A DNA stretch of 47,809 nt from the NCBI GenBank assembly GCA_021736445.1, contig JAIPGA010000010.1, forward strand, positions 1 to 47,809. Reading direction: 5' to 3'. This document shows, in pieces, positions 10,970 through 29,959 of the stretch; the stretch's first letter is position 1; each line of letters opens with the position of its first letter. Origin of the DNA: Synergistales bacterium (GTDB lineage: Bacteria > Synergistota > Synergistia > Synergistales > Aminiphilaceae). The notes beneath the pieces are model-generated. The model was not told the origin of the DNA and searched no databases. It saw only the letters and a list, made by a program, of their open reading frames with translations. The position numbers were made by a program, and so were the translations under genes.

Positions 10970-10988
10970 CGAGAAAGGAGAGAGCGAG

Positions 10989-15399: not shown

Positions 15400-15564
15400 G
15401 GATTTCCTCCTGTCGGCCGGACCTGCGGCTGGAGTGTCGGTGCTATCGCCCGGTACGGCGGTGTGCCCCTCTGGAGCGTCCGGCCAGGTCCGGTGCTGGC
15501 TGTCGTGGCGTTGCCCCTATTGTACCGCCTCTGCCGGAGGGAAACACCAGGAACGATGCCCGGA

Positions 15565-16389
15565 TTACAGGGGAGGGTCGCTGGTGACGGCGCACTCCGC
15601 TACAAACCGGGCCGGTCCGGTGAGAGAGAGCAGGAGTTCGTCATCTCTGTGCTCGATGGTAACCCTGTTCACCCCTCCAGGGTTCGTCACATCCGTCGGA
15701 GAACCGGTCATCCCCTTCAGATAGGCCGCAACAGCCGCCGCCGTCGACCCTGTTCCGCAGGAGCGGGTGAAGTCATTGACGCCCCGTTCGAAGGTGGCCA
15801 CAGAGAGCCCCGCGTCGGTGACGGCTGCGAAATTCACGTTGGTGCCCTCCGGGAAGTGTTGTTTGTCGTTCTGGATCGCCTGGGCCAGTGCCTCCCTTCC
15901 GTTGCCCCCCGGGGGGCCCTCCATTGCCTCGAAAAAGAGCACCGTGTGGGGAACGCCCACCGTGAGGTGGCAGTAGACGATCTCCCTTCCCATAACGGAA
16001 AGCGTGCCGTCCAGGACCACCGCATCGGGCCGGAGCCTCCCCATGTCGAGGGTGACCTCCCCGCCGCCCACCCAGGCTCTGACAGGGCCCGCCAGGGTGA
16101 CGAAGCTCATCGCCGCCGGGGCGATGCCCCGCTCCCAGGCGTACCGGGCGAGGCAGCGGGCGCCGTTGCCGCACATCTCCCCTTCGCTGCCGTCGGCGTT
16201 GAACAGGCGCATCCCGAAGTGGCGGCCCTGGGCTTCTTCCAGCACCAGCAATCCGTCCGCGCCGAGGGAGCTCCGGCGACGGCAGAGGGTCGCCGCGATC
16301 CCGGAGAGTGCCTCCCTGTCGTATCTCTCCCGACGGTTGTCCAGCACCAGGAAGTCGTTGCCGTTTCCCTCCATTTTTGTCAGTTCCAT
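15565..16389 (-). CDS. dapF: Diaminopimelate epimerase
   Basis: A 274-residue cofactor-independent epimerase interconverting LL- and meso-diaminopimelate. Both catalytic cysteines are present: Cys73 in GEMCGNGARC and Cys211 in SCGTGSTAA, with the N-terminal MEGNGNDFLVLDN motif. The segment before Cys211 is VNDFTRS rather than the usual Glu-rich version, a mild departure. GAAGGAGG precedes the ATG. It lies 85 nt downstream of nhaC on the same strand, probably sharing its promoter, and across the divergent promoter from peptide uptake and diaminopimelate dehydrogenase. That placement suggests a role in using external diaminopimelate as well as, or instead of, lysine biosynthesis. The gap 15400-15564 holds no gene I can support. 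Confidence 0.93.
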   Translation of the reverse strand: MELTKMEGNGNDFLVLDNRRERYDREALSGIAATLCRRRSSLGADGLLVLEEAQGRHFGMRLFNADGSEGEMCGNGARCLARYAWERGIAPAAMSFVTLAGPVRAWVGGGEVTLDMGRLRPDAVVLDGTLSVMGREIVYCHLTVGVPHTVLFFEAMEGPPGGNGREALAQAIQNDKQHFPEGTNVNFAAVTDAGLSVATFERGVNDFTRSCGTGSTAAAVAAYLKGMTGSPTDVTNPGGVNRVTIEHRDDELLLSLTGPARFVAECAVTSDPPL

Positions 16390-16474
16390 GGTCTTCCTCC
16401 TTCGGCAAAGCAGTGCGGCGTCCGCACATGTGCGGGGGCCGCGTCGGATGGTTCGGTGCCGGCGGGACGCCCCG

Positions 16475-18157
16475 TCAGGCGGCCTGTTCCGCCGTGGTGG
16501 TCCCGTCGTCCACCTTGCTGGAGATGATCCAGAAGATCCCCAGGGCCACCGCGATGCCGATCAGCAGATCCACCAGCACCGGCAGTCCCAGGGCCACACC
16601 GGCGTAGCCCGCCAGGGCGCCGGCGGCCGAAACCAGTGCGTAGGGGGCCTGGCTGTTCACGTGGTCCATGTGGTCCGAGCCCGTGAACATGGAGGACATG
16701 ACCGTGGTGTCCGAGATGGGGCTGCAGTGGTCCCCCCAGACGGCGCCTCCGAAGACCGCTCCGATGGTGGGAATGATGGCCTGCATGGGATCGACCCCGG
16801 CGTTCTGGGAGACCGTGTAGGCCAGCGGAACGACAATGGGCATCAGGACGGCCATGGTCCCGTAGGAGGTCCCGGCGGAGAAGGAGATGGCCGCTCCCAT
16901 GATGAAGGTGATGAAGGGGATCCACATGGGCGCCAGCGTGTCGCCGGCGATCCCCACGATGAACTGCGGCGCCCCCACAGCCTTGATGGACGAGCCGATC
17001 CCCCAGGCGAAGATCAGGATCAGCGTTCCGAAGAAGATGGAGCGCATGCCCTCCATGTAGCCGCGGAAGAGGTACTTCCAGGTGGTCACCCCCTGGGCGC
17101 GGTAGAAGACCAGCGTGATGAAGACCGACCCGAAGGCACCCCAGACCAGCGCCTTGGAGCTGCTCCCGGCGCCGATGGCCTCGCGGACACCCACGCCCGG
17201 CCAGCCGCCGGTGACGATGAGCATGGTGAAGATCAGTCCGATCAGCGAGATGATGGGGATCACGAAGTTGACCAGCCGGCGTGGCGTTTTCTCGGCGGGG
17301 ATCAGGTCGTCGCTTTCCACGTTGATGAGCGGTTCGGCGTCGTCGCGGATGATCTTGCCGGTCCGTCTCGCCCGGCGCTCCGCCTTAAGCATGGGTCCGA
17401 AGTCCCGCAGCGTGAGGATGCAGAAGGTCATCAGAATAAGTGCGAGGATGTTGTAGAAGATATAGGGAATGGAGCTCAGATAGGCCACGTAGGGCGAGCT
17501 GTCGATCTCCAGAGCGGAGAACTGGTTGCCGATCTGGCCCACCATGTAGGCGATCCAGGAGGAGATCCCGGCGATGCAGGCGATCGGGGCGGCCGTGGAG
17601 TCGACGATGTAGGAGAGCTTCTCCTTGGAGATGTTGTACCTGGCGGTGATGGGGGTCATCGTCGTTCCGACAACCAGCGTGTTCACATAGTCCTCGAAGA
17701 AGATGATGAATCCGGCGAGTTCCGTCATCAGCAGCGCGCCCTTGACGCTGTTGATCTTGTTGGTGATCCACTGGACCACGGCGTCGATCCCGCCGCCGAC
17801 CCGCATGATCCCCACCAGGCCCCCCATGGTCAGACTGGTGAGGACGATCCGGGCCGACCAGGCGCCGCCCAGGTTGTCCCAGAGGGAGGCCACGGCATTG
17901 CCGAAGCCGGCGATGGGGTTCCCGCCGGCGATCATCGTGCCGGCCACCCATATGCCCAGGAAGAGCGAGGGGATGACCTCCTTGGAGATGATACAGAGTC
18001 CGATGGCGATGATCGGCGGGAGCAGGGAGAGGATACCGAAATTCGATGTCTCGCCGTTGGCGGCGAAGGCGGGAAGAGACAGAAGCAGAAGCGCAGACAG
18101 CACGGAACCGAAGAACAGAAGACGGCGGTCCCGTCGTGACGGAGTACTACTGGACAT
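16475..18157 (-). CDS. nhaC: NhaC-family Na+/H+ antiporter
   Basis: A 560-residue integral membrane protein with about 12-13 helices, belonging to the NhaC/ion transporter group that exchanges Na+ or coupled organic solutes for protons. Characteristic stretches include ELAGFIIFFEDYVNTLVVG near residue 155 and a late segment around AVFGGAVWGDHCSPISDTT. The first 35 residues resemble a cleavable signal (LLLLSLPAFAANGE). The ATG at 18157 has AGAGGTG 6 nt upstream; the GTG at 18175 has none. A strong promoter and a 180-nt leader precede it. Some members exchange amino acids or carboxylates, so with peptide uptake next to it, either sodium cycling for fermentation or a solute/Na+ role is possible. 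Confidence 0.88.
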   Translation of the reverse strand: MSSSTPSRRDRRLLFFGSVLSALLLLSLPAFAANGETSNFGILSLLPPIIAIGLCIISKEVIPSLFLGIWVAGTMIAGGNPIAGFGNAVASLWDNLGGAWSARIVLTSLTMGGLVGIMRVGGGIDAVVQWITNKINSVKGALLMTELAGFIIFFEDYVNTLVVGTTMTPITARYNISKEKLSYIVDSTAAPIACIAGISSWIAYMVGQIGNQFSALEIDSSPYVAYLSSIPYIFYNILALILMTFCILTLRDFGPMLKAERRARRTGKIIRDDAEPLINVESDDLIPAEKTPRRLVNFVIPIISLIGLIFTMLIVTGGWPGVGVREAIGAGSSSKALVWGAFGSVFITLVFYRAQGVTTWKYLFRGYMEGMRSIFFGTLILIFAWGIGSSIKAVGAPQFIVGIAGDTLAPMWIPFITFIMGAAISFSAGTSYGTMAVLMPIVVPLAYTVSQNAGVDPMQAIIPTIGAVFGGAVWGDHCSPISDTTVMSSMFTGSDHMDHVNSQAPYALVSAAGALAGYAGVALGLPVLVDLLIGIAVALGIFWIISSKVDDGTTTAEQAA

Positions 18158-18244
18158 GCATTTCACCTCTTTCACTGAACTCGATCTGTTGCGTCACATC
18201 CTTGGTCTCCTTTGGTGCCCAGACCCTTTTCGGGCAGAGCGGGA

Positions 18245-18294
18245 GTCGGAACCGGGGATCCCGACGGCAGCATCACCGCCCTTTCTGTCGGAAC
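18245..18294 (-). promoter_or_regulatory. nhaC leader with mutually exclusive pairing elements
   Basis: Read on the minus strand, the 5' leader contains CCGAC (18287-18291), then GTCGG (18261-18265), then a second CCGAC (18245-18249). The two CCGAC copies sit in direct repeats of GTTCCGAC. GTCGG can pair with either but not both, a layout seen in switching leaders. The first pairing is extended by an inner GGCGG/CTGCC stem. No known riboswitch class is recognised by eye. Confidence 0.35.
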
Positions 18295-18300
18295 TCGATG

Positions 18301-18315
18301 CTCATTTCTGATGAG
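18301..18315. promoter_or_regulatory. Shared operator candidate, nhaC copy
   Basis: CTCATTTCTGATGAG is a palindrome of form CTCAT-N5-ATGAG, starting about 22 nt downstream of the predicted nhaC transcription start. Its extension GCTCAT...GATGAGTGGT is nearly identical to the ddh copy at 26397-26411, and a third copy lies at 18610-18624. Confidence 0.65.
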
Positions 18316-18343
18316 TGGTAGCGTGATGAGTGATTGCGGGTTC

Positions 18344-18371
18344 AGTATAAGCGAAGATTCTCTCTTGTCAA
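18344..18371 (-). promoter_or_regulatory. Sigma-70-type promoter of nhaC-dapF
   Basis: On the minus strand: perfect TTGACA (18371-18366), a 16-nt spacer and TATACT (18349-18344), with the start near 18337. It faces away from the dipeptidase promoter at 18558-18587, so the two transcripts are divergent across a gap of about 600 nt between start codons. Confidence 0.8.
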
Positions 18372-18557
18372 TGTCGACTTTCTGTGCTGGACGAAGCAGC
18401 CTGGGCGGATAAATCGGGATGGTTGCGATGCCCCGGCGGGAAGGTATCGCCGGAGGATGGTCTGGGTTGTTCGAAATCGTTGTTGCCATGGAATGCAGAC
18501 CTGTGCAGAGGTCGATCATTCCGATGCGAAGGGCTGTTTGAGTTACAATGAGAAGCG

Positions 18558-18587
18558 TTGACAAATTATTGTTTTTTGTGGTAGGCT
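18558..18587 (+). promoter_or_regulatory. Promoter of the dipeptidase-peptide transporter operon
   Basis: A perfect TTGACA (18558-18563) is followed after 18 nt by TAGGCT (18582-18587), a poor -10 that would suit regulated expression. The start would be near 18594, leaving a leader of about 160 nt before the ATG at 18755. Confidence 0.6.
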
Positions 18588-18594
18588 CAAAATG

Positions 18595-18625
18595 GCTCAT
18601 CAAGAGCAAATCATCAGTGATGAGC
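18595..18625. promoter_or_regulatory. Shared operator candidate, dipeptidase copy, within a wider inverted repeat
   Basis: ATCATCAGTGATGAG (18610-18624) aligns with CTCATTTCTGATGAG and CTCATTATTGATGAG from the nhaC and ddh promoters. The left arm also forms a wider repeat, GCTCATCA (18595-18602) with TGATGAGC (18618-18625). The site begins about 16 nt past the predicted start, similar to the nhaC copy. Confidence 0.6.
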
Positions 18626-18640
18626 AAAATGCGCGAGCTA

Positions 18641-18694
18641 TCCGGAGAGGAGGCATGCCGCGGCTGCGCCGACAGGGCATGCCTCCTCTCCGGA
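18641..18694 (+). promoter_or_regulatory. Very stable 19-bp hairpin in the dipeptidase leader
   Basis: TCCGGAGAGGAGGCATGCC (18641-18659) is perfectly complementary to 18676-18694. The 16-nt loop contains CGGC-TGC-GCCG, which can extend the stem. A second hairpin, GCGGTA-GGGA-TACCGC (18705-18720), follows before the start codon. Neither has a T-run. They lie in the transcribed leader and could act as an attenuator, RNA stabiliser or cis-regulatory RNA. Confidence 0.6.
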
Positions 18695-18754
18695 GTGACC
18701 ACCTGCGGTAGGGATACCGCAAGGAACAACAGCATACCAGAGAGGATGTTGCGC

Positions 18755-19780
18755 ATGCCCGGGAATGAAGCGGAAAGGCTGCTGCGTGGGAGTACTGTGG
18801 TGGATGCCCATTTCGACCTGGCTATGGATATCCAGGACAAGTGGGACCGGGGCAGACGGAATGTCCTCCGGGAGGAGTACCTCCCCTCCTTCCGGAGGGG
18901 AGGGCTTGATCTTGTGGTCTCCTCCATCTTTCTCCACAGCTACTTTCTGCCGGAAATGGCCCTCCGGAAGGCTCTGACCCAGATCGGCATACTCAAAAAC
19001 GAGCTTGACGGACTGGGGGATCAGGTGCGCCTCGTGACCTCCCCCGAGGATATGGATGCCGTCCGGAAGGAGGGGCTTCTGGGGATCCTGCTCTCCTTTG
19101 AAGGTCTGGATCCGATCGGCAACGACCTCGATCTCCTGCGGGTCTTCTACGACCTCGGTGTCCGGGGAGCCGGTCTGGTCTGGAGCCGCAGGAACTACGT
19201 CGGCGACGGCTGCTTCCTCTCCCAGCGCCGGGAGGGGCGTAAGGGGGGGCTGACGGATTTCGGTGTTCGGGTGGTGCAGAAGGCGGCGGAGCTCGGGATG
19301 TACATCGATGTCAGTCATCTGAATGACGAAGGCTTCTGGGATGTCATGGAACATGCCGAAGGCCCGGTCATCGCCTCGCACTCCAACTGCCGGGCCCTGG
19401 TGGATTCCCCCAGGAACCTCACGGACGAACAGATCCAGGCGATTGCCCAGAAGGGCGGTGTGATCGGCATGAATGCCTACGCGGCCTACGTGGCCGGGGA
19501 TTTCAGGGAGCGCAGGGCGGGTGCCGGGGATCTTGTGGACCATCTGGATCATGTGGTGGGGCTTGTCGGCGTGGAGCATGTGGGGATCGGTTTTGATTTC
19601 TGCTCCAATTTCGAGGACTTCATGTCCTTTGATGACGGCGAGCTTGAATACGATCTGTTCGAAGGGCACCAGGAGATGCACCTGTGGGTGCGGGCCCTGC
19701 TGGAGAGGGGGTATGGAACGGCGGAGGTGCAGAGGATTCTTGGCGGGAATTTCTGGAATTTCCTGAAACGGTCCCTGTGA
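18755..19780 (+). CDS. Membrane-dipeptidase-type metallopeptidase (family M19)
   Basis: A 341-residue zinc dipeptidase of the renal dipeptidase family, which cleaves dipeptides and, unusually, tolerates a D-residue at the C-terminal position. Metal-binding residues are recognisable: His19 and Asp21 in VVDAHFDLA, Glu in LSFEGLDPIG, His in IDVSHLNDEGF, and His in VIASHSNCRAL. GIGFDFCSNF follows near the C-terminus. No signal peptide is evident from the ATG at 18755, so it should act in the cytoplasm. That ATG has GAGAGG 9 nt upstream; the ATG at 18746 abuts the site. It is first in the peptide uptake operon, 60 nt before the binding protein. Confidence 0.93.
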   Translation: MPGNEAERLLRGSTVVDAHFDLAMDIQDKWDRGRRNVLREEYLPSFRRGGLDLVVSSIFLHSYFLPEMALRKALTQIGILKNELDGLGDQVRLVTSPEDMDAVRKEGLLGILLSFEGLDPIGNDLDLLRVFYDLGVRGAGLVWSRRNYVGDGCFLSQRREGRKGGLTDFGVRVVQKAAELGMYIDVSHLNDEGFWDVMEHAEGPVIASHSNCRALVDSPRNLTDEQIQAIAQKGGVIGMNAYAAYVAGDFRERRAGAGDLVDHLDHVVGLVGVEHVGIGFDFCSNFEDFMSFDDGELEYDLFEGHQEMHLWVRALLERGYGTAEVQRILGGNFWNFLKRSL

Positions 19781-19840
19781 GGCTGCAATGGAAGAGTGAT
19801 TGAACGAATGTCCTGGTACAGAGAAAAGGAGGAGAGAGCA

Positions 19841-21448
19841 TTGAGAAGCTACGTGCACGGTGTTCCGCGTTTCCTGCCGGCAGTTGTGGTGGTGGTGGCC
19901 GTACTGATGCTGTCTGCGGGCGCCTTCGCCGCCGAGAAGGTGTTGACCGTCCCCTACCCGGAGGATCCCCAGACGGCGGACTGTCAGAAGACCACAAGCT
20001 GCTACACCCTGCCGCTGAACTGTTTCGACCGGCTTCTGGAGTGTGTGACCGTGAAACCCGGCGAGTCCAGGCTTGAGCCGGGGCTGGCGGAGAGCTGGGA
20101 GATCTCCGATGACGGGAAGACCTACACCTTCCATCTCCGGGAGGGGGTCTTGTTCCACAACGGAGAAGAGTTGACGGCGGACGATGTGGTCTATACCTTC
20201 GACCGCATGCTGAACCCCAGGACAAAAGCCCTGAATACGGGCATCCTCGATTTTGTCGAGGGCGCCAAGGCCCGGCTTGACGGCGAGGCCGAATCCACGA
20301 AGGGGTTGAAGGCCCTGGACAGGTACACCGTCCAGATCGAGCTGAGCAAGCCCTACGCGCCCTTCCTCGCCGTGATGGCGAGTCCCCAGTCCAGCATTTT
20401 CAACCGCGAATTCACCGAAGCGGCGGGGCAACGGTTCGGGTTGACCCCGGAGACGACCTGCGGCACCGGACCCTTCATTTTGAAGGAGTACGCCCTGAAC
20501 GACCGCCAGGTCCTGACAGCCAACGAGGAGTACTACAAGGGTCCCCCCGAGATCGACCGCCTGGTGATCAAGGTGGTCAGCGACGCCGAGACCATGCGGA
20601 TGCTCTTCGAGGCGGGGCAGATCGATGTCTTCGACTGCGACTACGCCATCTCGCAGATCCCCTACTTCACGCAGAGCAAGAAGTGGAAGGACAACATTGT
20701 CAGCGGCCCCCGGGTCGGGATCTACTATATCAGTCTGAACCAGCGCAAGAAGCCCTTCGACGATGTGCGCGTCAGAAAGGCCTTCCAGATGGCCATCGAC
20801 AGGGAGCTCATCCTGGAGAAGATGTTCTACGGCCGCGGTGTGCTGGCCAATGGCGTGATGCCCAGGGGGCTCGTGGGGTACAATCCCGATCTTGCGGCTC
20901 TGGAGTACAACCCGGAGAAGGCGAGGACGCTCCTCGCCGAAGCCGGCTACCCCGACGGCGCCGACATGACCATCGTCCAGGTCAGCGGCTGGAGCCAGAA
21001 GTGGGTCAAGATCAACGAGATCATCCAGGCCATGGTCAAGGACGCAGGGTTCCGGCTCGATATCAGACAGGTCGATGAGTCGACCTACTACGCCACACGC
21101 AAAACAGGCGATGTCGGGCCCTACACACAGGTGTGGTCTGCGGATTTCAACGATCCCGACAACTTCTTCTATACCTTCTTCGGCAGGAGAGGGACGGTGG
21201 TCCGTTCCTTCAACAACCACAGCCCCGAGGTGTTCGATGCCATCGACCGGGCGCGGGCCATGACCGACCAGCAGGAGCGCATCGCGCTCTACCGCTCCCT
21301 GGAGAAGAAGATCGTCCACGAGCAGGCCGCCTGGGTGCCGCTTTTTACCCTGGATCACGTCTACGTGGTGCGCGACAAGGTGAAACGCTTCGAGGTGCCC
21401 TGGAACGGCTGGAGCGACATGTCCTACTACCCCATGGATGTGCAGTAG
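19841..21448 (+). CDS. Peptide ABC transporter substrate-binding protein
   Basis: A 535-residue periplasmic binding protein of the dipeptide/oligopeptide/nickel family (SBP family 5), the normal length. It has a signal peptide ending near AGAFAAEKVL and no lipobox Cys. Family features include LEPGLAESWEISDDGKTYTF and FHNGEELTADDVVYTFDRML. The start is probably the TTG at 19841, 8 nt after AAGGAGGAG; the longer GTG start at 19796 would put 15 charged residues before the signal. It feeds the two permeases and two ATPases that follow. The ligand is not readable; the downstream peptidases suggest short peptides, perhaps from cell walls. Confidence 0.9.
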   Translation: MRSYVHGVPRFLPAVVVVVAVLMLSAGAFAAEKVLTVPYPEDPQTADCQKTTSCYTLPLNCFDRLLECVTVKPGESRLEPGLAESWEISDDGKTYTFHLREGVLFHNGEELTADDVVYTFDRMLNPRTKALNTGILDFVEGAKARLDGEAESTKGLKALDRYTVQIELSKPYAPFLAVMASPQSSIFNREFTEAAGQRFGLTPETTCGTGPFILKEYALNDRQVLTANEEYYKGPPEIDRLVIKVVSDAETMRMLFEAGQIDVFDCDYAISQIPYFTQSKKWKDNIVSGPRVGIYYISLNQRKKPFDDVRVRKAFQMAIDRELILEKMFYGRGVLANGVMPRGLVGYNPDLAALEYNPEKARTLLAEAGYPDGADMTIVQVSGWSQKWVKINEIIQAMVKDAGFRLDIRQVDESTYYATRKTGDVGPYTQVWSADFNDPDNFFYTFFGRRGTVVRSFNNHSPEVFDAIDRARAMTDQQERIALYRSLEKKIVHEQAAWVPLFTLDHVYVVRDKVKRFEVPWNGWSDMSYYPMDVQ

Positions 21449-21462
21449 GCTGCGGTGGAAAC

Positions 21463-21490
21463 CGGTGGAATGCCCCGCGGGGCATTCCAC
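21463..21490 (+). terminator. 28-bp perfect palindrome between binding protein and permease
   Basis: The arm GGTGGAATGCCCC (21463-21475) and its complement at 21478-21490 form a 28-nt perfect palindrome, so the RNA makes a 12-bp stem with a CGCG loop. No T-run follows. As with the hairpin after tctC, this would favour binding-protein mRNA over the permease message. Confidence 0.65.
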
Positions 21491-21528
21491 CTCCTGCATG
21501 CGCGAGCGGGGGAAGGTGGGGATAAGCA

Positions 21529-22452
21529 ATGTTGCAGTATGCCCTCAAGCGGCTTCTGATAGCCATACCGGTATTGCTGGGCATCACGTTTCTGATATTT
21601 TTTCTGCTTAATGTCGTTCCCGGCGATCCTGTGGCTCTGATGATGAAAGAGAAGGCCAGCGCCGAGGTCATCACCCGGGTCAGAGCCCAGATGCATCTGG
21701 ATGATCCGTGGCCGGTCCGGTACCTCCGATTCCTCTGGGGCGTGCTCCACGGTGATTTCGGCGTTTCCTACAAGCTGCACCGGCCCGTGACGGGGCTGAT
21801 CATGAATGCCTTCCCAAAGACACTGATTCTGGCTTTTTCCGCGGCGCTCTTTTCGTGGATCATCGGGATCCCGGCGGGTGTGCTCTCTGCGGTGAAACAG
21901 TACTCCATTCCGGATTACCTGTTTATGGGATTTTCGTTGACCGGGGTTTCCATGCCCATCTTCTGGTCGGCGCTGCTCTTCCAGTATGTCTTCGCCCTCA
22001 AGCTGCAGTGGTTGCCTGTGGCCGGTTTCTACGGCTGGCAGTACGTCATACTGCCGGCCATCATCCTCGGCTGGAGTTCGGCGGGACTGATCGCCAGGCT
22101 GACCCGGTCGAGTCTGCTTGACGTCATGGGCAACGACTACATCAGAACGGCCCGTGCCAAGGGGGTCAGGGAGGTGCCTGTGATCGTAGGGCACGCCCTC
22201 AAGAATTCCATGCTGCCTGTGGTGACGGTCATGGCCGTGCAGGTCTCGACACTCCTCTCCGGTGCGGTGATCACAGAGAGTGTGTTTGGTATCTCCGGTC
22301 TCGGGCGGGTGGCTGTGGACGCGATCAAAAGCCGGGATATGCCCCTGCTGCAGGGGGCTGTGCTCTTTGCGACCCTGCTGGTGATCCTCGGGAACCTGAC
22401 TGCGGATATCCTCTACTCCTATCTGGATCCCCGCATACGCTACGAAAAGTAG
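21529..22452 (+). CDS. Peptide ABC transporter permease, DppB type
   Basis: A 307-residue inner-membrane permease with six predicted helices and the N-terminal MLQYALKRLLIAIPVLLGIT typical of DppB/OppB. The cytoplasmic EAA loop that docks on the ATPase is at about 200-225 (DYIRTARAKGVREVPVIVGH). It pairs with the next gene to form the channel. GGGGAAGGTGGGG precedes the ATG. It lies 9 nt before the second permease. Confidence 0.93.
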   Translation: MLQYALKRLLIAIPVLLGITFLIFFLLNVVPGDPVALMMKEKASAEVITRVRAQMHLDDPWPVRYLRFLWGVLHGDFGVSYKLHRPVTGLIMNAFPKTLILAFSAALFSWIIGIPAGVLSAVKQYSIPDYLFMGFSLTGVSMPIFWSALLFQYVFALKLQWLPVAGFYGWQYVILPAIILGWSSAGLIARLTRSSLLDVMGNDYIRTARAKGVREVPVIVGHALKNSMLPVVTVMAVQVSTLLSGAVITESVFGISGLGRVAVDAIKSRDMPLLQGAVLFATLLVILGNLTADILYSYLDPRIRYEK

Positions 22453-22461
22453 GGTGACGCC

Positions 22462-23385
22462 ATGGAATCGGAAAAGGAACACAGCATGAACACGGAACAG
22501 GATGGACGTGAACGGTCCGGCGGCACCCGGGAGGGTGGGGGCAGGGATTCCCTTCTGTGGGATGTGCTCCGTGCGTACCGGAAGAACAGGACAGCGCTGC
22601 TGGGTGTGGTGTTCGTCATTGTTCTTGTCGTGCTGGCGGTGTTCGCCCCCTGCCTCTCGCCCGGTGACCCCTACGCGGTGGATCTGAACAGACAGTCGCT
22701 GGCCCCTTCATGGCAGCACTGGTTCGGTACCGACAGCCTGGGACGGGATCTGTTGAGCCGGGTGATCTACGGCGCCCGGATCTCCCTGCTTGTCGGCCTG
22801 GTTCCCAGCTTTATCGCTATCGCCATCGGCGGCGTCCTCGGCGTGGTCAGCGGGTACATCGGGGGCCGGACCGATTTCTGGCTCATGCGGCTCGCCGATG
22901 TGGTGCTTGCCTTTCCTTCGCTGCTGCTTGCCATGGTGGTCATGTACACCCTGGGCGCCTCGCTGTTCAATATCTTTATCGCTCTGAGTCTGGTGGGGTG
23001 GGCCGGCGCCGCCCGGGTTGTCCGTTCCCAGGCCCTCTCTCTGCGCGAGAAGGAGTTTATCGAGGCGGCCAGGGCGATCGGTGTGCGTGATGTGGTGATC
23101 ATCCTGCGGCATATCTTTCCGAACTGCCTGCCGGCGCTGATTGTGCTCTTTACGCTCCGCATCCCCCAGGCCATCATGGCGGAGGCGGGGCTGAGCTTCC
23201 TGGGTGTGGGGGCCCAGCCGCCCACACCCAGCTGGGGATTGCTTGTGTCGCGGGGAAAGGAGTTTCTTTTCTCCGCGCCATGGATCGCCATTCTTCCGGG
23301 GGTGGCGATATTTCTGACGGTGCTGGCCTTCAACTTCATGGGCGATGGCTTTCGGGACGCCATCGACCCGTACATGGAAGACTGA
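22462..23385 (+). CDS. Peptide ABC transporter permease, DppC type
   Basis: A 307-residue permease of the DppC/OppC group with a polar N-terminal extension before the first helix (about residues 43-65), as is usual. It contains HWFGTDSLGRDLLSRVIYGAR near residue 90 and the EAA loop FIEAARAIGVRDVVIILRH near 200. The start is uncertain between the ATG at 22462 and one at 22486 that has AAAAGGA before it. It ends 15 nt before the first ATPase gene. Confidence 0.93.
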   Translation: MESEKEHSMNTEQDGRERSGGTREGGGRDSLLWDVLRAYRKNRTALLGVVFVIVLVVLAVFAPCLSPGDPYAVDLNRQSLAPSWQHWFGTDSLGRDLLSRVIYGARISLLVGLVPSFIAIAIGGVLGVVSGYIGGRTDFWLMRLADVVLAFPSLLLAMVVMYTLGASLFNIFIALSLVGWAGAARVVRSQALSLREKEFIEAARAIGVRDVVIILRHIFPNCLPALIVLFTLRIPQAIMAEAGLSFLGVGAQPPTPSWGLLVSRGKEFLFSAPWIAILPGVAIFLTVLAFNFMGDGFRDAIDPYMED

Positions 23386-23400
23386 GCAGGGGACGTGCCG

Positions 23401-24399
23401 ATGACACAGGAGAGCCTACTCACCATCCGGGGTTTGAAAACGCAGTTTTTCACGCGAAAGGGTGTGGTCCCTGCGGTCGACGGGCTGGACCTTGATGTGG
23501 AACGGGGGAGGATCACCGGCATTGTCGGCGAATCGGGGTGCGGCAAGAGCGTCACGGCGCTCTCGATCCTCGGCCTCATTCCCGGACCCGCCGGCCGGAT
23601 TGTGGAGGGGCGGATGCTCTTCGAGGGCGAAGATCTGGTGCGGAAAAGCTATGCTCAGATGTCGGCGATACGGGGCAGGGATATCTCCATGATCTTCCAG
23701 GAACCCATGACGGCATTGAACCCTGTCTACCGGGTGGGGCGCCAGGTGGGGGAACCCTTGCGGGTCCACTCGAACCTTTCAGGGGAAGAGATCAGGGAGC
23801 GTGTGATCGAGATGCTCGATCTGGTGGGGATCCCCGATCCGGGGTCGCGGTACCATGCCTTTCCGCACCAGCTCTCCGGGGGGTTGCGGCAGCGGGTGAT
23901 GATCGCCATGGCGTTGATCTGCGACCCCAAACTGCTTATCGCCGACGAGCCCACCACGGCACTGGATGTGACGATACAGGCCCAGATCCTGGAGCTGATG
24001 AAACGTCTCATGAGGCGTCTGGATACCTCCATCATCCTGATTACCCATGATCTGGGTGTCGTCGCCGAGGTCTGCGACGAGGTCCATGTGATGTACGCCG
24101 GCAAGGTGGTGGAATGCGGGGATGTCTACGATATCTTCGATGCCCCCGCCCATCCCTATACCCGGGGGCTGATCCAGTCCATACCCGGGGTGCGCGAAAC
24201 CAGGGCGGGAGGCCGTCTCTACAACATCGAGGGAATGGTGCCGCCGCTCCTGAACCTTCCGTCGGGCTGCCGTTTCGCCCCGCGCTGCGACCGGGCCGGG
24301 CCGCAGTGCCGTCGGTCGGTGCCGGAGCTCCTTCCGGTGGGGGACGGCCATCTCGTTCGCTGCTGGAAGGCCGGAGAGGGGAGGAGGTGTGCGGGATGA
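23401..24399 (+). CDS. Peptide ABC transporter ATP-binding protein, DppD type
   Basis: A 332-residue ATPase with Walker A GESGCGKS near residue 45, signature [15 protein letters not shown] near 160, Walker [13 protein letters not shown] near 180 and a His switch (ILITHDLG). The C-terminal oligopeptide/dipeptide domain contains a Cys-rich segment ([14 protein letters not shown]) of the kind that binds an Fe-S cluster in some Dpp/Opp ATPases. The ATG at 23401 follows AGGGGA by 7 nt, better than the GTG at 23395. Its stop overlaps the next start in ATGA. Confidence 0.94.
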
Positions 24400-25370
24400 G
24401 TCCCGCTCTGCTGGAGACCAGAGGATTGAAGAAGTACTTCCCCCTCTCCTCGGGACTGCTGGGGAAGAAGAAACGTGCGGTCCGTGCGGTGGACGACGTG
24501 GACCTCGCCATTATGGAGCGTGAGACCTTTGCCCTGGTCGGCGAGTCGGGATGCGGGAAGACGACCCTGGGCCGGCTCCTCCTCCGGCTGATCGAGCCGA
24601 CAGAGGGTGAGGTGCGCTTCGGGGGAACCGACATCTTCTCCCTCCCGCCCGGGGAGATGCGGGCTCTGCGGCGGGAGATGCAGATTATCTTCCAGGATCC
24701 CTATGCCTCCCTCGATCCCAGGATGCGGGTGCGGGATATCCTTGCGGAACCGCTGCGGACCCACCGGGATGTGGTTCCCTCCGGGAAGCGGGACGCCAGG
24801 GTCCGGGAACTCCTCGATGTGGTCGGTCTGCGGGAGGATGCCCTCGCCAAGCATCCCCACCAGTTCAGCGGCGGCCAGCGTCAGCGGATCGGCATCGCCA
24901 GGGCATTGATGCTGCAGCCCCGCTTTGTGGTCTGTGACGAGGCGGTGTCGGCGCTGGATGTCTCGATCCAGGCGCAGATCCTCAATCTGTTGCAGGATCT
25001 GCAGGAGCGGTTTTCCCTGACGCTGCTCTTTATCACCCACGATCTCAGTGTTGTGCGCTATCTGGCGGACCGTGTGGGCGTAATGTTTTTGGGGCGCTGT
25101 GTGGAGATGGGCAGAACCTCGGAGATCTTCGCTTCGCCGCTGCACCCCTACACGCGCTTTCTGCTCTCCGCCGTTCCCCTGCCCGATCCGCACCAGCGGG
25201 ACCGGGAGAGGATGCTCCTGAAAGGTGATATCCCCAGCCCCATCGATCTCCCCCCGGGCTGCCGTTTCCACACGCGATGTCCCTTTGCGCGGAAGATCTG
25301 CAAGGAAGAGGATCCACCGACACAGTGGCGGGAAGGGCGGAGCTACGCCTGCCATTTTCCCCTGCGGTAG
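24396..25370 (+). CDS. Peptide ABC transporter ATP-binding protein, DppF type
   Basis: A 324-residue second ATPase with Walker [10 protein letters not shown], signature [15 protein letters not shown], Walker [13 protein letters not shown] and the C-terminal [14 protein letters not shown] Cys motif seen in DppF/OppF. It starts at the ATG overlapping the previous stop, preceded by GAGGAGG. It forms the heterodimeric motor with the preceding gene product. LD-carboxypeptidase follows after 37 nt and is likely on the same transcript. Confidence 0.94.
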
Positions 25371-25407
25371 CCGGTGGTGCGAATACAAAGAAAGGATGAG
25401 GCAAAGC

Positions 25408-26364
25408 ATGCGACGGGTACCTGCTCTGCGCCCGGGCGATACGGTGGGGCTGGTCTCCCCCTCCAGTCCATCCTCCAGACGGTCTGTCGACACGGCTGTG
25501 CAGGCGGTGCGGGAGCTGGGGTTTCAGGTCAAGGTGGGACCCAGCTGTTACGCCGCACTGGGGTATATGGCAGGTGAGGATTCCCTCCGGGCCCGGGATG
25601 TGAACGAGATGTTCGCCGATCCCGGGGTCCGCGGTATCCTCTGCCTCCGCGGCGGCGACGGGGCGACGCGCCTCCCTCCTCTGATCGATCTCGAGGCGAT
25701 CGCACGCACCCCCAAGGTGTTTCTCGGGTACAGCGACATCACCATTCTCCACCAGATGTTCAACTGCTACGGCGGGTTCTGCACCTTCCACGGCCCCATG
25801 CCTGCCACAGAGTTCTCGAAACCCACCTTCCCCGGCTATGTGCGGGACCATCTTCTGCAGGCGCTCTGCCGGGAGGAACCCCTGGGACGGATCGAACCCT
25901 ATGAAGGGGCCGCCCCCATGGAGACCCTGGTGCCGGGCGCCGCCGAGGGGGAACTGGTGGGCGGGAACCTGGCTCTGGTCTGTGCACTTCTGGGAACCCC
26001 CTGGGAGATCGACACCAGGGGACGTATCCTGGTTCTGGAGGATGTGGACGAACCGCCCTACCGTATCGACCGGATGCTGACGCAGCTGCGTCTTGCCGGG
26101 AAACTGCAGGACGCCGCCGGTATCGTGCTGGGACAGTTCAACCATATCAAGCCCAAGAATCCGTCGCGGACCCTGAGCCTTGCCGAGATCTTCGAGGCGG
26201 TCGTCGCCCCGGTCGGCACGCCCTGTCTGACCGGCGGCTGTTTCGGCCACGGCGAGAAGAAGGTCACCCTGCCGCTCGGGGCGAGGGCCGCCCTTGATGG
26301 TGCCGCGGCGGAGCTGACGCTTCTGGAGTCCGGGGTCCTGGGAGATGTTGATGGCTCTTCTTGA
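25408..26364 (+). CDS. LD-carboxypeptidase, family S66
   Basis: A 318-residue serine peptidase of the MccF/LdcA family, which in bacteria removes the terminal D-Ala from muropeptide tetrapeptides at the bond to meso-diaminopimelate. The catalytic Ser lies in FLGYSDITIL; Glu and His are in the C-terminal half (LVLEDVDEPPY; GCFGHGEKKVTLPLG). No signal peptide, so it should work on imported peptides in the cytoplasm, as LdcA does in recycling. The ATG at 25408 has GAGG 6 nt upstream; an ATG at 25396 abuts its site. The last bases overlap the -35 element of the ddh promoter. Some S66 members act on other substrates (for example microcin C), so the muropeptide role is inferred from context. Confidence 0.9.
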   Translation: MRRVPALRPGDTVGLVSPSSPSSRRSVDTAVQAVRELGFQVKVGPSCYAALGYMAGEDSLRARDVNEMFADPGVRGILCLRGGDGATRLPPLIDLEAIARTPKVFLGYSDITILHQMFNCYGGFCTFHGPMPATEFSKPTFPGYVRDHLLQALCREEPLGRIEPYEGAAPMETLVPGAAEGELVGGNLALVCALLGTPWEIDTRGRILVLEDVDEPPYRIDRMLTQLRLAGKLQDAAGIVLGQFNHIKPKNPSRTLSLAEIFEAVVAPVGTPCLTGGCFGHGEKKVTLPLGARAALDGAAAELTLLESGVLGDVDGSS

Positions 26365-26389
26365 CGGAGCGGGGGCAAACCCCTATAGT
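26361..26389 (+). promoter_or_regulatory. Promoter of the ddh operon
   Basis: TTGACG (26361-26366), a 17-nt spacer and TATAGT (26384-26389) put the start near 26396, at the edge of the operator at 26397-26411. The -35 element overlaps the end of the LD-carboxypeptidase gene. Confidence 0.75.
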
Positions 26390-26396
26390 CTCCTTG

Positions 26397-26411
26397 CTCA
26401 TTATTGATGAG
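26397..26411. promoter_or_regulatory. Shared operator candidate, ddh copy
   Basis: CTCATTATTGATGAG, same CTCAT-N5-ATGAG form as in the nhaC promoter and with the same following TGGT, sits right at the predicted transcription start, a position suited to repression. Confidence 0.7.
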
Positions 26412-26441
26412 TGGTGAGCACGCGAAAAGGAGCTGTCACGA

Positions 26442-27347
26442 TTGGAAACGATTCGGATTGCAGTGGTCGGATACGGCAATGTGGCGAAGGAAGCGGTCAA
26501 TGCGGTGGAGACGGCTCGGGACATGGAGCTTGCGGGGATTGTGATCCGCAACCCCGATAAGGTGGCCCCGGTTGAGCGCGAAAGCGGCGCGCAGGTGGTG
26601 CTCGATGTGTCGGAACTGGGAAGGGTGGATGCGGCGGTGCTGGCCGTGGCGAGCCGGGCCGTTCCCGTCGTGGCGCCGGTCTACCTCGAACAGGGGATCG
26701 CCACGGTGGACAGCTACGATATCCACGGAGATCCCATGCTGGAGCTGCGCCGGCAGCTCGGCGCGAGCGCCCGGAACGGGAAGACCGCCGCCGTGATCGG
26801 GGCGGGGTGGGATCCCGGGAGCGACTCGCTGGTCCGCGGGCTCTTCGAACTCCTCGCCCCCCGGGGGATCACCTGCACGGATTTCGGACCCGGCGTGAGC
26901 ATGGGGCATACCGTGGCCGTCAAGCAGATTCCCGGCGTAGCCGATGCCGTTTCGCTGACGTTGCCCGCCGGACAGGGGAGGCACCGCCGGAGGGTCTACG
27001 TGGAGGTGGCCGCAGGATACGACATCGAAGGGATCCGGAGCACCATCGGCGAGGATCCCTACTTCTGCGGCGACGACACCTGCGTGGAAGAGGTTGAGGA
27101 TGTGAACCAGCTCATCGATCTCGGCCACGGTGTCCATATGGAGCGCAAGGGCGTGGCCGGCTGCTCCCACAACCAGCGGATGACGCTGGAGATGACCGTG
27201 ATGAATCCCGGTGCGACGGCCCAGATGATGGTCTCCGCCGCCCGCGGGGCCGTCCGGCAGAGCCCCGGGGGCTACACGATGCTGGAGATCCCTGTGGCCG
27301 ATTGTCTCCCCGGTGACAGAGAGGGCACGCTGAAACGGCTCGTCTAA
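26442..27347 (+). CDS. ddh: meso-Diaminopimelate D-dehydrogenase
   Basis: A 301-residue NADP-linked dehydrogenase that interconverts meso-diaminopimelate and L-2-amino-6-oxopimelate plus ammonia. The Rossmann motif is at the N-terminus (AVVGYGNVAKEAV). Family-specific stretches are clear: ATVDSYDIHGDP near residue 87, GAGWDPGSDSL near 120, FGPGVSMGHTVAVKQIPGV near 148, and a C-terminal TMLEIPVADCLPGD. It starts with TTG, 9 nt after AAAAGGAG. It is slightly shorter than the Corynebacterium enzyme (about 320). Its own promoter carries the operator shared with nhaC-dapF and the dipeptidase operon, and LD-carboxypeptidase is directly upstream. That argues for a catabolic direction, yielding NADPH and ammonia, although the enzyme is reversible and elsewhere serves lysine synthesis. 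Confidence 0.92.
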   Translation: METIRIAVVGYGNVAKEAVNAVETARDMELAGIVIRNPDKVAPVERESGAQVVLDVSELGRVDAAVLAVASRAVPVVAPVYLEQGIATVDSYDIHGDPMLELRRQLGASARNGKTAAVIGAGWDPGSDSLVRGLFELLAPRGITCTDFGPGVSMGHTVAVKQIPGVADAVSLTLPAGQGRHRRRVYVEVAAGYDIEGIRSTIGEDPYFCGDDTCVEEVEDVNQLIDLGHGVHMERKGVAGCSHNQRMTLEMTVMNPGATAQMMVSAARGAVRQSPGGYTMLEIPVADCLPGDREGTLKRLV

Positions 27348-27379
27348 CCGGTGGCGCAGGTCAGGAAAGGATGACGTCT

Positions 27380-29089
27380 ATGACTGCAGCACAGGCACTA
27401 CTGGAGATGCTCCGTGCCTATCATGTCGAGTATGTCTTTGGGCTACCGGGGGAGACGACGCTGGGCCTCTACGATGCCTGGAAGCGCTTTGACGGGATCA
27501 CCCACGTGATGGCCCGGGACGAACGGAACGCCGTCTTCATGGCCGACGGCTACGCCAGGGTTTCCGGGCGGCCCGGCGTCTGCGAGGGGCCGAGCGTGGG
27601 GGCCACCCACATGATCCCGGGGGTGGTGGAGGCGGCGAAATCCTTTATCCCCCTTGTGGTGATGACCTCCGACATCCCCCTGCACATGGAAAAACACAAT
27701 ATGCTCACCGGCTTCGACCAGACCGGCCTCTTTGCCGGGGTGGCCAAGGAGAGCCTCACCGCCACCCGGGGGGAGGAGATCCCCTATCTGGTGCAGCGGG
27801 CCTTCCGTGTCGCCACAGGCGGATCGCCGGGACCGGTGCATCTCCGACTGCCCATGGATGTGCTGGCGGAGGAGATCCACCGTCTGCTTCCACCGGCGCA
27901 GGAACGATTCGCCTTCTGTCCGGGAACGCGTCCGGTGGCGGACCCCGACTCCGTGCAGCAGGCGGCCCGTGCGCTGGCGGACTGTGACAGCGGGGTCATG
28001 GTCTGCGGGCAGGGGGTGCTGACCTCGCGGGCCTGGGAGGAGGTGGCGGAAACCGCCGAGCGCTTTGGCCTGGCTGTGGCGACCACCATCAACGGCAAGG
28101 GGAGCATCGCCGAGACCCACCCGCTCTCCGTCGGGGTGATCGGTTCCCGGGGGAGCACGGCCTATTCCAACCGCTTTCTTGAAGAGGCGGATCTCGTGGT
28201 CTTTGTGGGCAGCAGCACCGATTCCGTGGGTACCGATGGAGGCAGGCTCCCGCCGGAAGGAGCCGGAACGCGCTTCGTTCATCTCAATCCGGACGAAGGG
28301 GAGCTGGGCAACAGCTGTTCCGACGCCCTGCTTCTGCAGGGCGATGCGCAGAGCACCCTGCGGGCACTCCTGGTATCGGCGGAAGACCAGCGACTGACCC
28401 CGCGTTGCGATATGCGCTCGGGCGTCGCGCGACGGCCGAGCCCGGAGAGCTGTGCCGGAGCGGAACAGTCGGCCCGGGGATATATGGATCCCCGCCCGGC
28501 GGTGGGGCTGCTGACGGAAGCCATGCCGGAGGACGCCGTGATTGTCGCCGATCCCGGGATGAGCGCTGTCTATCCTGCGGCCTTCTACCGGATTCCCCGC
28601 CCCGGTCGGTACTTTGTCTGCAACTACGCCATGGGTGCCCTCGGCTATGGTTTCCCCGCGGCACTGGGGGTTTCCTACGCCATTCCGGAGGATCGCATGG
28701 TGCTCAACTTCACCGGCGACGGCAGCTTCGGCTTTACCGCCGGAGAGCTCGAGACACTGGCCCGTCTGGGGCGGAACGTCAAGGTAGTGCTGTTCAACAA
28801 CGAGAGCTACGGCTGGATCCGGGCTACCAACCGCTTCAGCTTCGGGGGACCCCACTTCGCCACCGATTTCCAGGGCGTGGACTATGTGGGGCTGGCCGAG
28901 AGCTGCCGGATACCGGCGTTCCGTGCGGCCTCTATCCCGGAGCTGCGGAGGGTGGTCTCCGCCTTCTATGATGTACAGGGTCCCGCTTTGCTCGAGCTGG
29001 TGGTTCCGCCGGAGGACCGCTGCGTGCCGCCGGTTCCGGACTGGGCCGCCAAGGCTGCAGAGCTGGGGATGGAGTGTCCCTACTGGTGA
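27380..29089 (+). CDS. Thiamine-diphosphate-dependent enzyme, acetolactate synthase-like
   Basis: A 569-residue protein with the three-domain layout of acetolactate synthase and 2-oxoacid decarboxylases. The ThDP-activating Glu is in VFGLPGETTLG near residue 26, and the cofactor motif GDGSFGFTAGELETLARLG followed by NNESYGW is near residue 450. The substrate is unknown. It is unlikely to be biosynthetic acetolactate synthase: no small subunit gene is adjacent and it lies 32 nt after ddh. The ddh product is a 2-oxo-acid, so decarboxylation or carboligation of L-2-amino-6-oxopimelate is a natural guess. The ATG at 27380 has AGGAAAGG 9 nt upstream, better than the ATG at 27371, which abuts it. 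Confidence 0.85.
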   Translation: MTAAQALLEMLRAYHVEYVFGLPGETTLGLYDAWKRFDGITHVMARDERNAVFMADGYARVSGRPGVCEGPSVGATHMIPGVVEAAKSFIPLVVMTSDIPLHMEKHNMLTGFDQTGLFAGVAKESLTATRGEEIPYLVQRAFRVATGGSPGPVHLRLPMDVLAEEIHRLLPPAQERFAFCPGTRPVADPDSVQQAARALADCDSGVMVCGQGVLTSRAWEEVAETAERFGLAVATTINGKGSIAETHPLSVGVIGSRGSTAYSNRFLEEADLVVFVGSSTDSVGTDGGRLPPEGAGTRFVHLNPDEGELGNSCSDALLLQGDAQSTLRALLVSAEDQRLTPRCDMRSGVARRPSPESCAGAEQSARGYMDPRPAVGLLTEAMPEDAVIVADPGMSAVYPAAFYRIPRPGRYFVCNYAMGALGYGFPAALGVSYAIPEDRMVLNFTGDGSFGFTAGELETLARLGRNVKVVLFNNESYGWIRATNRFSFGGPHFATDFQGVDYVGLAESCRIPAFRAASIPELRRVVSAFYDVQGPALLELVVPPEDRCVPPVPDWAAKAAELGMECPYW

Positions 29090-29175
29090 AGCGAGTGCCT
29101 CCGCAGCAGCCGAAGCCGACGGGATTTCTGGTAGGATATGGAGCGGATCCCGGAGATCATGGAGGCGGCGCAGCT

Positions 29176-29928
29176 ATGAACGAACAGTCTACGCAGAACG
29201 AAACCCTCATTCTGGCGCTTCAGGCGCTGGGGCACGCCACCGAGCCCCTCGGTGCCGGTTCGCTGGCCCGTGCGCTGCGGGACATGGGTTCGCCCGTCAG
29301 CATGGCCACCGCCGGCCGGATTCTCTGGGAGCTCGACGAGAAGGGATACGTGGAGAAGGTGAGCAACAAGGGGCGTGTGCTTTCCACCGAGGGACAGGCC
29401 TACCTTGAGGAGGTAGAGGCCCGGGGGAAGAACAACATGCTGGCCCAGGCGCTTCTCGACGAGCTCCATCTGCGAACGCCCGGGGATCTGCTGGATATCC
29501 TTGTCGCCAGAAGGGCCATCGAACGGGAGACCGCCCGCCTTGCGGCCGTCAATGCCTCCGAGGAGGATCTGGCGGAGATCAGGGCCTTCGCCGAGATCCT
29601 CGACGGCGGGGAGGAGCAGGGACGCAGTATCTCCGTGATGGACCGCATGTTCCACGAGGCCATCGCCCAGGCGGGGAAGAACAGCGTTCTGATCGCCACG
29701 CTCAAGCTCGTGCGGCAGGACGTGCATGTCCAGCATGCCTTCGCCTTTATCCGCCGCCAGGAAGGACGCCATCTCGGCGGCGACCACATGCCTGTCTACG
29801 AGGCCGTCGCCGGAAGGGATCCCGATGCGGCCGAACGCGCCATGTTGCGGCATATCGACAATATCGTCCGCGACGTGGAGCACTACTGTCGGGAGGAGGA
29901 TCTCGCCGGGGATTCTTCTGAGCGGTAG
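29176..29928 (+). CDS. Winged-helix regulator with FCD ligand-binding domain
   Basis: A 250-residue regulator. Residues about 10-75 resemble the winged helix of NrpR/ribonuclease-R-like regulators (EPLGAGSLARALRDMGSPVS, then ATAGRILWELDEKGYV) rather than a standard GntR helix. Residues about 85-235 form an FCD domain with intact metal-ligand pattern (MDRMFHEAIAQAG, GGDHMPVYEAV, MLRHIDNIV). The start at 29176 has GGAGG 10 nt upstream; the longer frame from 29074 overlaps the previous gene. Last of the ddh transcript, it is the obvious candidate for binding the three CTCAT-N5-ATGAG operators and sensing a small acid such as diaminopimelate. A terminator follows. Confidence 0.85.
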   Translation: MNEQSTQNETLILALQALGHATEPLGAGSLARALRDMGSPVSMATAGRILWELDEKGYVEKVSNKGRVLSTEGQAYLEEVEARGKNNMLAQALLDELHLRTPGDLLDILVARRAIERETARLAAVNASEEDLAEIRAFAEILDGGEEQGRSISVMDRMFHEAIAQAGKNSVLIATLKLVRQDVHVQHAFAFIRRQEGRHLGGDHMPVYEAVAGRDPDAAERAMLRHIDNIVRDVEHYCREEDLAGDSSER

Positions 29929-29959
29929 CGCGCCATGAGGCGTTGCGGCATGCCGATGC

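Follow-up and report, generated by a model that had tools for sequence, protein, structure and literature searches.

A candidate regulon for uptake and oxidative dissimilation of diaminopimelate in Synergistota

In anaerobic communities, much carbon and nitrogen is stored in peptidoglycan, whose hallmark amino acid is diaminopimelate (DAP). AruI, a 5-guanidino-2-oxopentanoate decarboxylase, exemplifies the decarboxylation of 2-oxo acids in amino-acid breakdown, and the LD-carboxypeptidase YkfA of Bacillus subtilis belongs to family S66. In the B. subtilis dpp-ykf region, the genes for YkfA, the epimerase YkfB and the endopeptidase YkfC adjoin dppB-E, and YkfC cuts gamma-D-Glu-DAP, as the accessible part of the source describes (PMC2954226). 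Among titles and abstract openings in the open-access literature, with subscription journals mostly uncovered, we found no paper on a dedicated operon for DAP breakdown. Here, we analysed a contig of 47,809 nucleotides (the window; contig C10, JAIPGA010000010.1) from a 2.45-Mb assembly of a Synergistales bacterium (112 contigs; completeness 97.56, contamination 3.35). Between positions 15565 and 29928 lie genes for DAP epimerase (dapF), DAP dehydrogenase (ddh), a thiamine diphosphate (ThDP)-dependent enzyme, peptidases, transporters and a regulator, which on balance probably form an inducible regulon for uptake and oxidative dissimilation of DAP from the cell walls of other bacteria. A preliminary description of the sequence had proposed such a dedicated regulon. 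It remains the best reading, backed by the pairing of ddh with the ThDP gene, the operator, a second dapF in the relative G121 and the lack of lysA matches above cut-off in genomes with this ddh clade, whereas the role given to NhaC, the order of steps and the ThDP step came through less well.

The minus strand of the locus carries nhaC and then dapF, and the plus strand a gene for an M19 dipeptidase, a solute-binding protein gene, dppB, dppC, dppD, dppF, an S66 gene, ddh, the ThDP gene and the regulator gene (Table 1). Model searches confirmed every named gene, with boundaries equal to the span first proposed or a few bases off; the importer, dipeptidase, LD-carboxypeptidase, dapF, ddh, ThDP gene and NhaC of the preliminary description are all present. 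Its shared operators are borne out as three copies of one 15-bp palindrome, each past a promoter-like site. With up to two mismatches, CTCATYANTGATGAG gave six strand matches in the window, equal to three sites (shuffle mean 0.37), and none of 100 shuffles attained six. A consensus scan of positions 15300-30200 returned two sigma-70-like promoters, each just upstream of an operator (the first and the third); as 2.4 would be expected by chance, their placement rather than their number carries weight. A third TTGACA at 18558, with a weaker -10 element seen by eye, precedes the operator of the M19 gene. Operators placed at or just past the transcription start suit a repressor.

Judging from its position and from relatives, the regulator encoded at 29176 would be the protein that binds the palindrome. 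Its structure model matches the FCD ligand-binding domains of PdhR and DhdR (target-normalised template modelling score ∼0.8). We propose that this HTH_12-FCD protein represses the three promoters from a CTCATCANTGATGAG-type palindrome that closely follows each of them, and would be released on binding a ligand, either DAP or a product. Regulators of HTH_12-like plus FCD type form a family in the phylum (window protein and 18 others aligned; of these, the window's was the one compared with domain models), and the palindrome beside them is near constant though many are only 29-38% identical to the window's. Scanning the genome outside the window with CTCATNNNTGATGAG at up to one mismatch yielded eight further sites, by our gene calls seven within genes and one intergenic, upstream of an unrelated-looking gene of 99 amino acids. 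A wider regulon in this genome was set aside on these grounds; since the outside sites are so placed, the regulon probably consists of this locus alone.

Searching 185 genomes of the phylum, we obtained Ddh matches in 27: 17 with a match of the window clade (51-72% identity), G102 at 49%, eight distant ones (33-36%) and an unclassified fragment in G139 (G, L and f denote genomes, fetched loci and families). Sixteen of the 17 window-clade genomes were read; G020, with hits nearly the same as those of G021, was left out, and G008 is represented by a single 3.2-kb contig. Several loci end at contig ends, making the linkage counts lower bounds, and genes in fetched loci were called with a home-made codon-usage caller, so their starts are approximate. 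The ThDP gene directly follows ddh on the same strand in 11 of the 16 (G000, G007, G008 with the ThDP gene cut by the contig end, G009, G010, G018, G019, G175, G178, G182 and G183). In G022, G023 and G121, at most 10 kb separates a ThDP gene from a ddh; in G021, the ThDP gene is elsewhere. The nearby ddh of G022 is partial, the complete copy adjoining dpp at another place. For G017, the ddh match extends only to residue 256, and the ThDP search gave no hit better than 1e-120. The Dpp-S66 set adjoins ddh in six of the 16 genomes (G000, G017, G018, G019, G021 and G022), and dapF shares a fetched locus with ddh in six (G000, G017, G018, G022, G023 and G121). Transporters beside the ddh, ThDP and dapF genes vary among Dpp, Liv, SDF, TRAP and NhaC types.

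The operator travels with these genes. With up to one mismatch, CTCATNNNTGATGAG occurs at 30 sites, 29 of them intergenic by our gene calls, in all 16 loci from 15 window-clade genomes (shuffle mean 1.0), and one more operator stands 51 bases upstream of ddh in G008. It also precedes dapF operons unlinked to ddh, namely regulator-dapF-Liv in G009 (L120, site 9984) and mutY-dapF-regulator in G021 (L122, site 7319), the latter divergent from a TRAP transporter; these are the two of seven loci fetched around other dapF genes that contain the motif, the other five lacking it. The Liv transporter of the G009 dapF operon resembles the f10 Liv beside ddh-ThDP, with binding protein and permeases 78-84% and ATPases 62-67% identical, and close copies of that binding protein lie near dapF in G017 and G018, accompanied by the permeases in G017. 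Thus dapF, ddh, the ThDP gene and the transporters look like one regulon even where they are apart.

The window's ddh, ThDP and regulator genes are nearest to family f10 (72, 70 and 77% identity), versus 62-63, 51-52 and 51% within their own family, whereas dppB is nearest to its own family (71-74%) and 70% identical to f4. The 77% regulator, from G183, is the second in its locus, after Liv; the one adjoining the ThDP gene there is 38% identical. ThDP proteins encoded beside ddh fall in three parts of the ThDP tree, with Shimodaira-Hasegawa-like approximate likelihood ratio test (SH-aLRT) values of 83-93 at the parting forks and six label changes over 31 rows (trees built without the UBA4088 row, an apparent duplicate of G182). 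The same partners may therefore have been assembled more than once, which would speak for a shared function; the alternative is one old pairing followed by losses.

Ddh of the window reached 245.4 bits with TIGR01921 (cut-off 180.6) and matched StDAPDH of Symbiobacterium thermophilum (PDB 3wb9) over its full length (345 bits, residues 1-301), retaining the motifs VDSYDIHGD, GWDPG, SMGH, GHGV and ERKG. By hand count from the alignment, all eight residues that we take to form the StDAPDH substrate site (W121, D122, F146, M152, T171, R181, H227 and N253) are identical. So are five of the seven type II cofactor residues (V14, V68, P69, T70, S90, V156 and K159) listed in the available part of PMC7084900, where StDAPDH is NADP+-dependent; by the same hand count, P69 and T70 are A and S in the window. 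Only one ddh was found in this genome. In the proposed route, this type II Ddh would likely act oxidatively, converting meso-DAP and NADP+ to L-2-amino-6-oxopimelate, ammonium and NADPH.

The ThDP protein has Pfam TPP N, M and C domains, and both E51, presumably the catalytic Glu, and the stretch from G449-D450-G451 to N477, which we take to be the GDG-NN motif, are invariant across 22 ThDP sequences. It scored under every curated cut-off among the matches listed (25 of 54 models), the top ones among these being PRK06112 (315.5 of 673 bits) and TIGR00118 (311.9 of 538.35 bits), both under cut-off; with the AruI model NF005712, it reached 268.1 bits against a cut-off of 500 and by score is not a member. 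Naming the enzyme from its structure model (predicted local distance difference test score, pLDDT, 86.4) was abandoned, as the nearest hits were acetohydroxyacid synthases and other carboligases, which do not settle the substrate. We propose that it decarboxylates L-2-amino-6-oxopimelate to allysine (2-aminoadipate 6-semialdehyde), as the preliminary description had suggested for this substrate. With carboligases as the closest structures, this step is still a guess and the least certain part of the route. Allysine would then enter central metabolism through enzymes encoded elsewhere.

Upstream of these steps, the Dpp importer would take up short murein peptides or DAP-D-Ala, the S66 LD-carboxypeptidase and the M19 dipeptidase would free D-Ala from the L-centre of DAP, and DapF would convert LL-DAP to meso-DAP. 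DapF scored 194 bits with TIGR00652 (cut-off 114.65) and has both catalytic Cys motifs intact (EMCGNGARC and RSCGTGS); one dapF was found in this genome. G121 has a dapF in an operon adjoining ddh and a second one with both Cys elsewhere, and G017 and G018 have two each, the distant copy of G017 being without the first catalytic Cys. In that DapF-like protein of G017 (L118, 8915-9832), the Cys is replaced (EFLSGNGARC). In G017, G018 and G021, the Dpp-S66 set is accompanied by a gene for an M55 D-aminopeptidase (model run on the G018 copy). Sulphur-related genes also occur near dapF: a PatB-type C-S lyase gene two genes past dapF in G017, and the same gene cluster in G018 (L093, 15999-17216; L081, 1449-2603), and a D-cysteine-desulfhydrase-family gene that adjoins dapF-ddh in G023 and is near them in G121 (L083, 4041-5081; L085, 17106-18128). 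These neighbours hint at lanthionine or other sulphur-containing diamino acids.

NhaC had been given a possible part in Na+-linked energetics, which the relatives do not favour. Instead of the NhaC found here, the transporter slot beside dapF holds Liv in G009 and a divergent TRAP transporter in G021; G121, G022 and G023 have an SDF symporter there (identified by model in G121), and G017 and G018 a second Dpp-type binding protein (by model in G017). Because this slot is filled so variously, it seems likelier that the NhaC-family protein is a substrate transporter, carrying free DAP or a product, than that it serves only Na+ balance.

We then considered lysine synthesis. Neither dapA nor lysA gave a match at E 0.001 in this 97.56% complete assembly, and a dapB-model match (128 bits, cut-off 122) maps to a different contig, where its neighbours include no recognisable lysine genes. 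The MurE of this genome carries the DNPR motif, which we take to mark DAP-adding MurE, so an external supply of DAP may be required. Across the phylum, lysA above cut-off is found in none of the 17 window-clade ddh genomes versus 131 of the 168 others (Fisher p 1e-10, uncorrected for kinship; G182 and G183 counted as lacking a match by elimination from tallies), with weaker lysA family members in G017-G023 and G121. For dapA above cut-off, the figures are three of 17 (G009, G017 and G018) versus 119 of 168, and in a further 11 of the 17 a family match falls short of the cut-off. The dapA of G017 was set aside as proof of DAP synthesis, because its neighbours are a DAO-family oxidase gene and one resembling aldehyde-ferredoxin oxidoreductase (162 of 868 bits). 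Outside the window clade, ddh has dapA within ∼1-2 kb in seven of ten genomes (G102, G125, G128, G129, G137, G138 and G164; not adjoining in G135, G136 and G139), and all four fetched loci of this kind (L094, L095, L096 and L103) show the order dapA-dapB-ddh by model. These four gave no operator hit in 65,582 bases, a weak control as only 0.5 would be expected. None of the dapA places listed is beside a window-clade ddh. Ordinary lysine biosynthesis is thus an unlikely purpose of the locus: neither dapA nor lysA was found here, and it is the ddh genes outside the clade that adjoin dapA. The preliminary description had named sole copies of dapF and ddh, constitutively expressed for lysine synthesis, as grounds to give up the catabolic reading. 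The two genes are indeed the only copies found, but the lysine part does not fit, with dapA and lysA unmatched and the genes under operators.

Several observations weigh against DAP dissimilation. Type II DAP dehydrogenases act on 2-oxo acids generally, according to the part of PMC7084900 available, and a Fusobacterium protein predicted to be DapF proves to be a histidine racemase, according to that of PMC11602996, so the substrate of a 'DapF' may differ from DAP. DAP dehydrogenases run in both directions, and five of six assayed favoured amination over deamination, as the accessible text of PMC6382763 reports; an oxidative Ddh would therefore need a sink that pulls away the 2-oxo acid, and the adjacent ThDP enzyme could be that sink. 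The nearest solved relatives of the ThDP enzyme are carboligases (acetohydroxyacid synthase, HKA synthase, JanthE and glyoxylate carboligase). Moreover, G176 (87% complete) and G184 (94%) keep ThDP-regulator-Liv with no ddh match in the genome (L077 and L076). The ThDP enzyme may thus work independently of Ddh, which is a serious problem unless the 2-oxo acid comes from some other enzyme in those genomes. The operator also turns up ahead of ThDP-family operons lacking ddh (11 hits in eight of 18 loci, 0.9 expected) and therefore marks a regulator family rather than DAP alone. Neither a gamma-D-Glu-DAP endopeptidase (YkfC) nor a YkfB epimerase was recognised among the 12 locus genes, each compared with at least one model library, the rest of the genome being unsearched. 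The order of steps first proposed, which began with import of cell-wall peptides, is not supported on this point: with no endopeptidase seen in the locus, DAP-D-Ala or free DAP may enter, or the cut may be made elsewhere. Finally, the lysA pattern follows whole families, in about five lineages, and thus reflects few independent events.

In L083, L084, L085, L086, L087, L100, L105 and L106, the operator precedes ThDP-family genes or their neighbours with no ddh directly beside; the operons hold TRAP transporters, FAD oxidoreductases or a DUF34/NIF3-like protein and are probably sister regulons for other 2-oxo acids.

The same facts can be read in other ways. The locus might serve general use of D-amino acids and LD-peptides, with peptidases freeing D-Ala and other D-residues, Ddh oxidising a broad range of D-amino acids and the ThDP enzyme consuming the 2-oxo acid, possibly as a carboligase. 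The carboligase-like structures and the substrate breadth of enzymes such as StDAPDH (PMC7084900, in the part available) fit this, as do ThDP homologues elsewhere in the phylum that share this operator and are encoded near a DAO-family oxidase gene with a separate copy of it (L086; same cluster c15 in L100). However, DapF, needless for a simple D-amino-acid route, recurs in the same fetched locus as Ddh in six of 16 genomes, and the StDAPDH motifs for DAP are retained, though StDAPDH itself is broad; we regard this explanation as improbable, if the most serious of the alternatives. Rather less probable still is salvage for the cell's own wall, in which a cell that has lost DAP synthesis imports DAP for MurE, with DapF supplying the meso form and Ddh doing no more than adjust pools. 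Such salvage would account for the missing dapA match, the single dapF and ddh, a MurE with the DNPR motif (its meaning as assumed above) and the rarity of above-cut-off dapA in the clade (three of 17 versus 119 of 168). It leaves the ThDP partner of ddh without a function, and in G121 a second dapF, with both Cys, persists outside the operon; the dapA loss itself is uncertain, with sub-cut-off family matches in 11 of 17 genomes and an assembly 97.56% complete.

The mutual exclusion of above-cut-off lysA and the window ddh clade (none of 17 versus 131 of 168) would also make sense if Ddh and a ThDP decarboxylase formed a lysA-free route to lysine, from meso-DAP to allysine followed by amination. 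This is very unlikely: lysA is missing too from relatives without a ddh match (G006 and, in f10, G176, G177, G179, G180, G181 and G184, some by elimination), no aminating enzyme was recognised in the loci, and a repressible operon with peptidases suggests catabolism. We give slightly less credence again, and very little in all, to a sulphur analogue (lanthionine or cystathionine) as the true target with DAP as a side substrate. The PatB-type lyase near dapF in G017 and G018 and the D-cysteine-desulfhydrase-family gene near dapF-ddh in G023 and G121 point that way, yet neither is among the window locus genes, and Ddh and the ThDP enzyme would have no obvious use on lanthionine. DAP dissimilation thus remains our preferred explanation of the locus.

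Table 1. Features of the proposed DAP regulon in the window
Feature	Position	Strand	Basis or remark
dapF, diaminopimelate epimerase family	15565..16389	-	TIGR00652 and both catalytic Cys motifs
NhaC-family transporter (Na_H_antiporter model)	16475..18175	-	Start uncertain, 18103 possible; upstream of and co-oriented with dapF
Operator 1, CTCATTTCTGATGAG	18301..18315	.	Between nhaC-dapF promoter and nhaC
Promoter-like TTGACA-16-TATACT (11/12) for nhaC-dapF	18344..18371	-	Consensus scan
Promoter-like TTGACA-18-TAGGCT for M19-dpp-S66	18558..18587	+	Weak -10, read by eye
Operator 2, ATCATCAGTGATGAG	18610..18624	.	Upstream of M19 gene
Membrane-dipeptidase family M19	18746..19780	+	Model match; start uncertain
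DppA/SBP_bac_5-type solute-binding protein	19796..21448	+	Model match; start uncertain
DppB-type permease	21529..22452	+	Model match
DppC-type permease	22462..23385	+	Model match
DppD-type ATPase	23395..24399	+	ABC_tran and oligo_HPY
DppF-type ATPase	24396..25370	+	ABC_tran and oligo_HPY
LD-carboxypeptidase, family S66	25408..26364	+	Model match
Promoter-like TTGACG-17-TATAGT for ddh-ThDP	26361..26389	+	Consensus scan
Operator 3, CTCATTATTGATGAG	26397..26411	.	7 bases past -10 of ddh promoter
ddh, type II meso-diaminopimelate dehydrogenase	26442..27347	+	TIGR01921; closest solved relative StDAPDH
ThDP-dependent 2-oxo-acid enzyme, acetohydroxyacid-synthase-like fold; proposed 2-amino-6-oxopimelate decarboxylase	27371..29089	+	
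Regulator, HTH_12 winged helix fused to FCD ligand-binding domain	29176..29928	+	Pfam models

Directly past the regulator gene, a G+C-rich strong hairpin at 29962-29988, followed by few T and unlisted by the terminator scan, perhaps ends the operon. Elsewhere in the window, a citrate cluster (2754-12215) encodes a TctA-type transporter, CitF (citrate lyase alpha), a protein of the HpcH/HpaI-citrate lyase family, aconitase and a protein of the isocitrate-dehydrogenase family. A Sir2-family (sirtuin) protein is encoded at 32125-32850, and consecutive genes at 34916-40187 encode a DUF2298 membrane protein, a flavin amine oxidase-like protein and a PMT-type glycosyltransferase.

More tentatively, and with slightly less than even confidence, we suggest a regulon spread across several Synergistota families under HTH_12-FCD repressors and one palindrome, in which DapF, an oxidative Ddh and the ThDP enzyme, acting on L-2-amino-6-oxopimelate, would form an energy-yielding route for breaking down cell-wall diamino acids. 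Its carriers would have dropped lysA, and several maybe DAP synthesis, so that DAP from dead neighbours would serve as food, perhaps even as a nutrient they cannot do without; some members would also use lanthionine. If DAP dissimilation is the right reading of the locus, type II DAP dehydrogenases would gain a use in the oxidative direction and a ThDP group so far without assignment a substrate; ddh and a ThDP gene under one operator would mark feeders on necromass, and the link between lysA loss and a scavenging way of life would become testable.

Among known systems, B. subtilis dpp-ykf is alike in that the window, too, has a Dpp-type importer next to an LD-carboxypeptidase, and relatives of the locus have an M55 D-aminopeptidase of the DppA type. 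In contrast, dpp-ykf stops at tripeptide breakdown, whereas the window locus adds DapF, Ddh and the ThDP enzyme under another regulator and operator. With StDAPDH, the window Ddh shares a full-length match and motifs; DAP dehydrogenases in the literature, as far as the available parts of PMC6382763 and PMC7084900 go, are enzymes of DAP and lysine synthesis or D-amino-acid biocatalysts, whereas the window ddh stands under an operator with a ThDP gene, in a genome that gave no lysA match. AruI belongs to the same ThDP superfamily, and the chemistry proposed here is alike, deamination followed by decarboxylation of a 2-oxo acid, but the window protein scores higher with acetolactate-synthase models (315 and 312 bits, also under their cut-offs). 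The GntR/FCD repressors PdhR, DhdR and NanR share the FCD domain with the window regulator and differ in the DNA-binding part, which in the window is HTH_12, with no match to a GntR domain.

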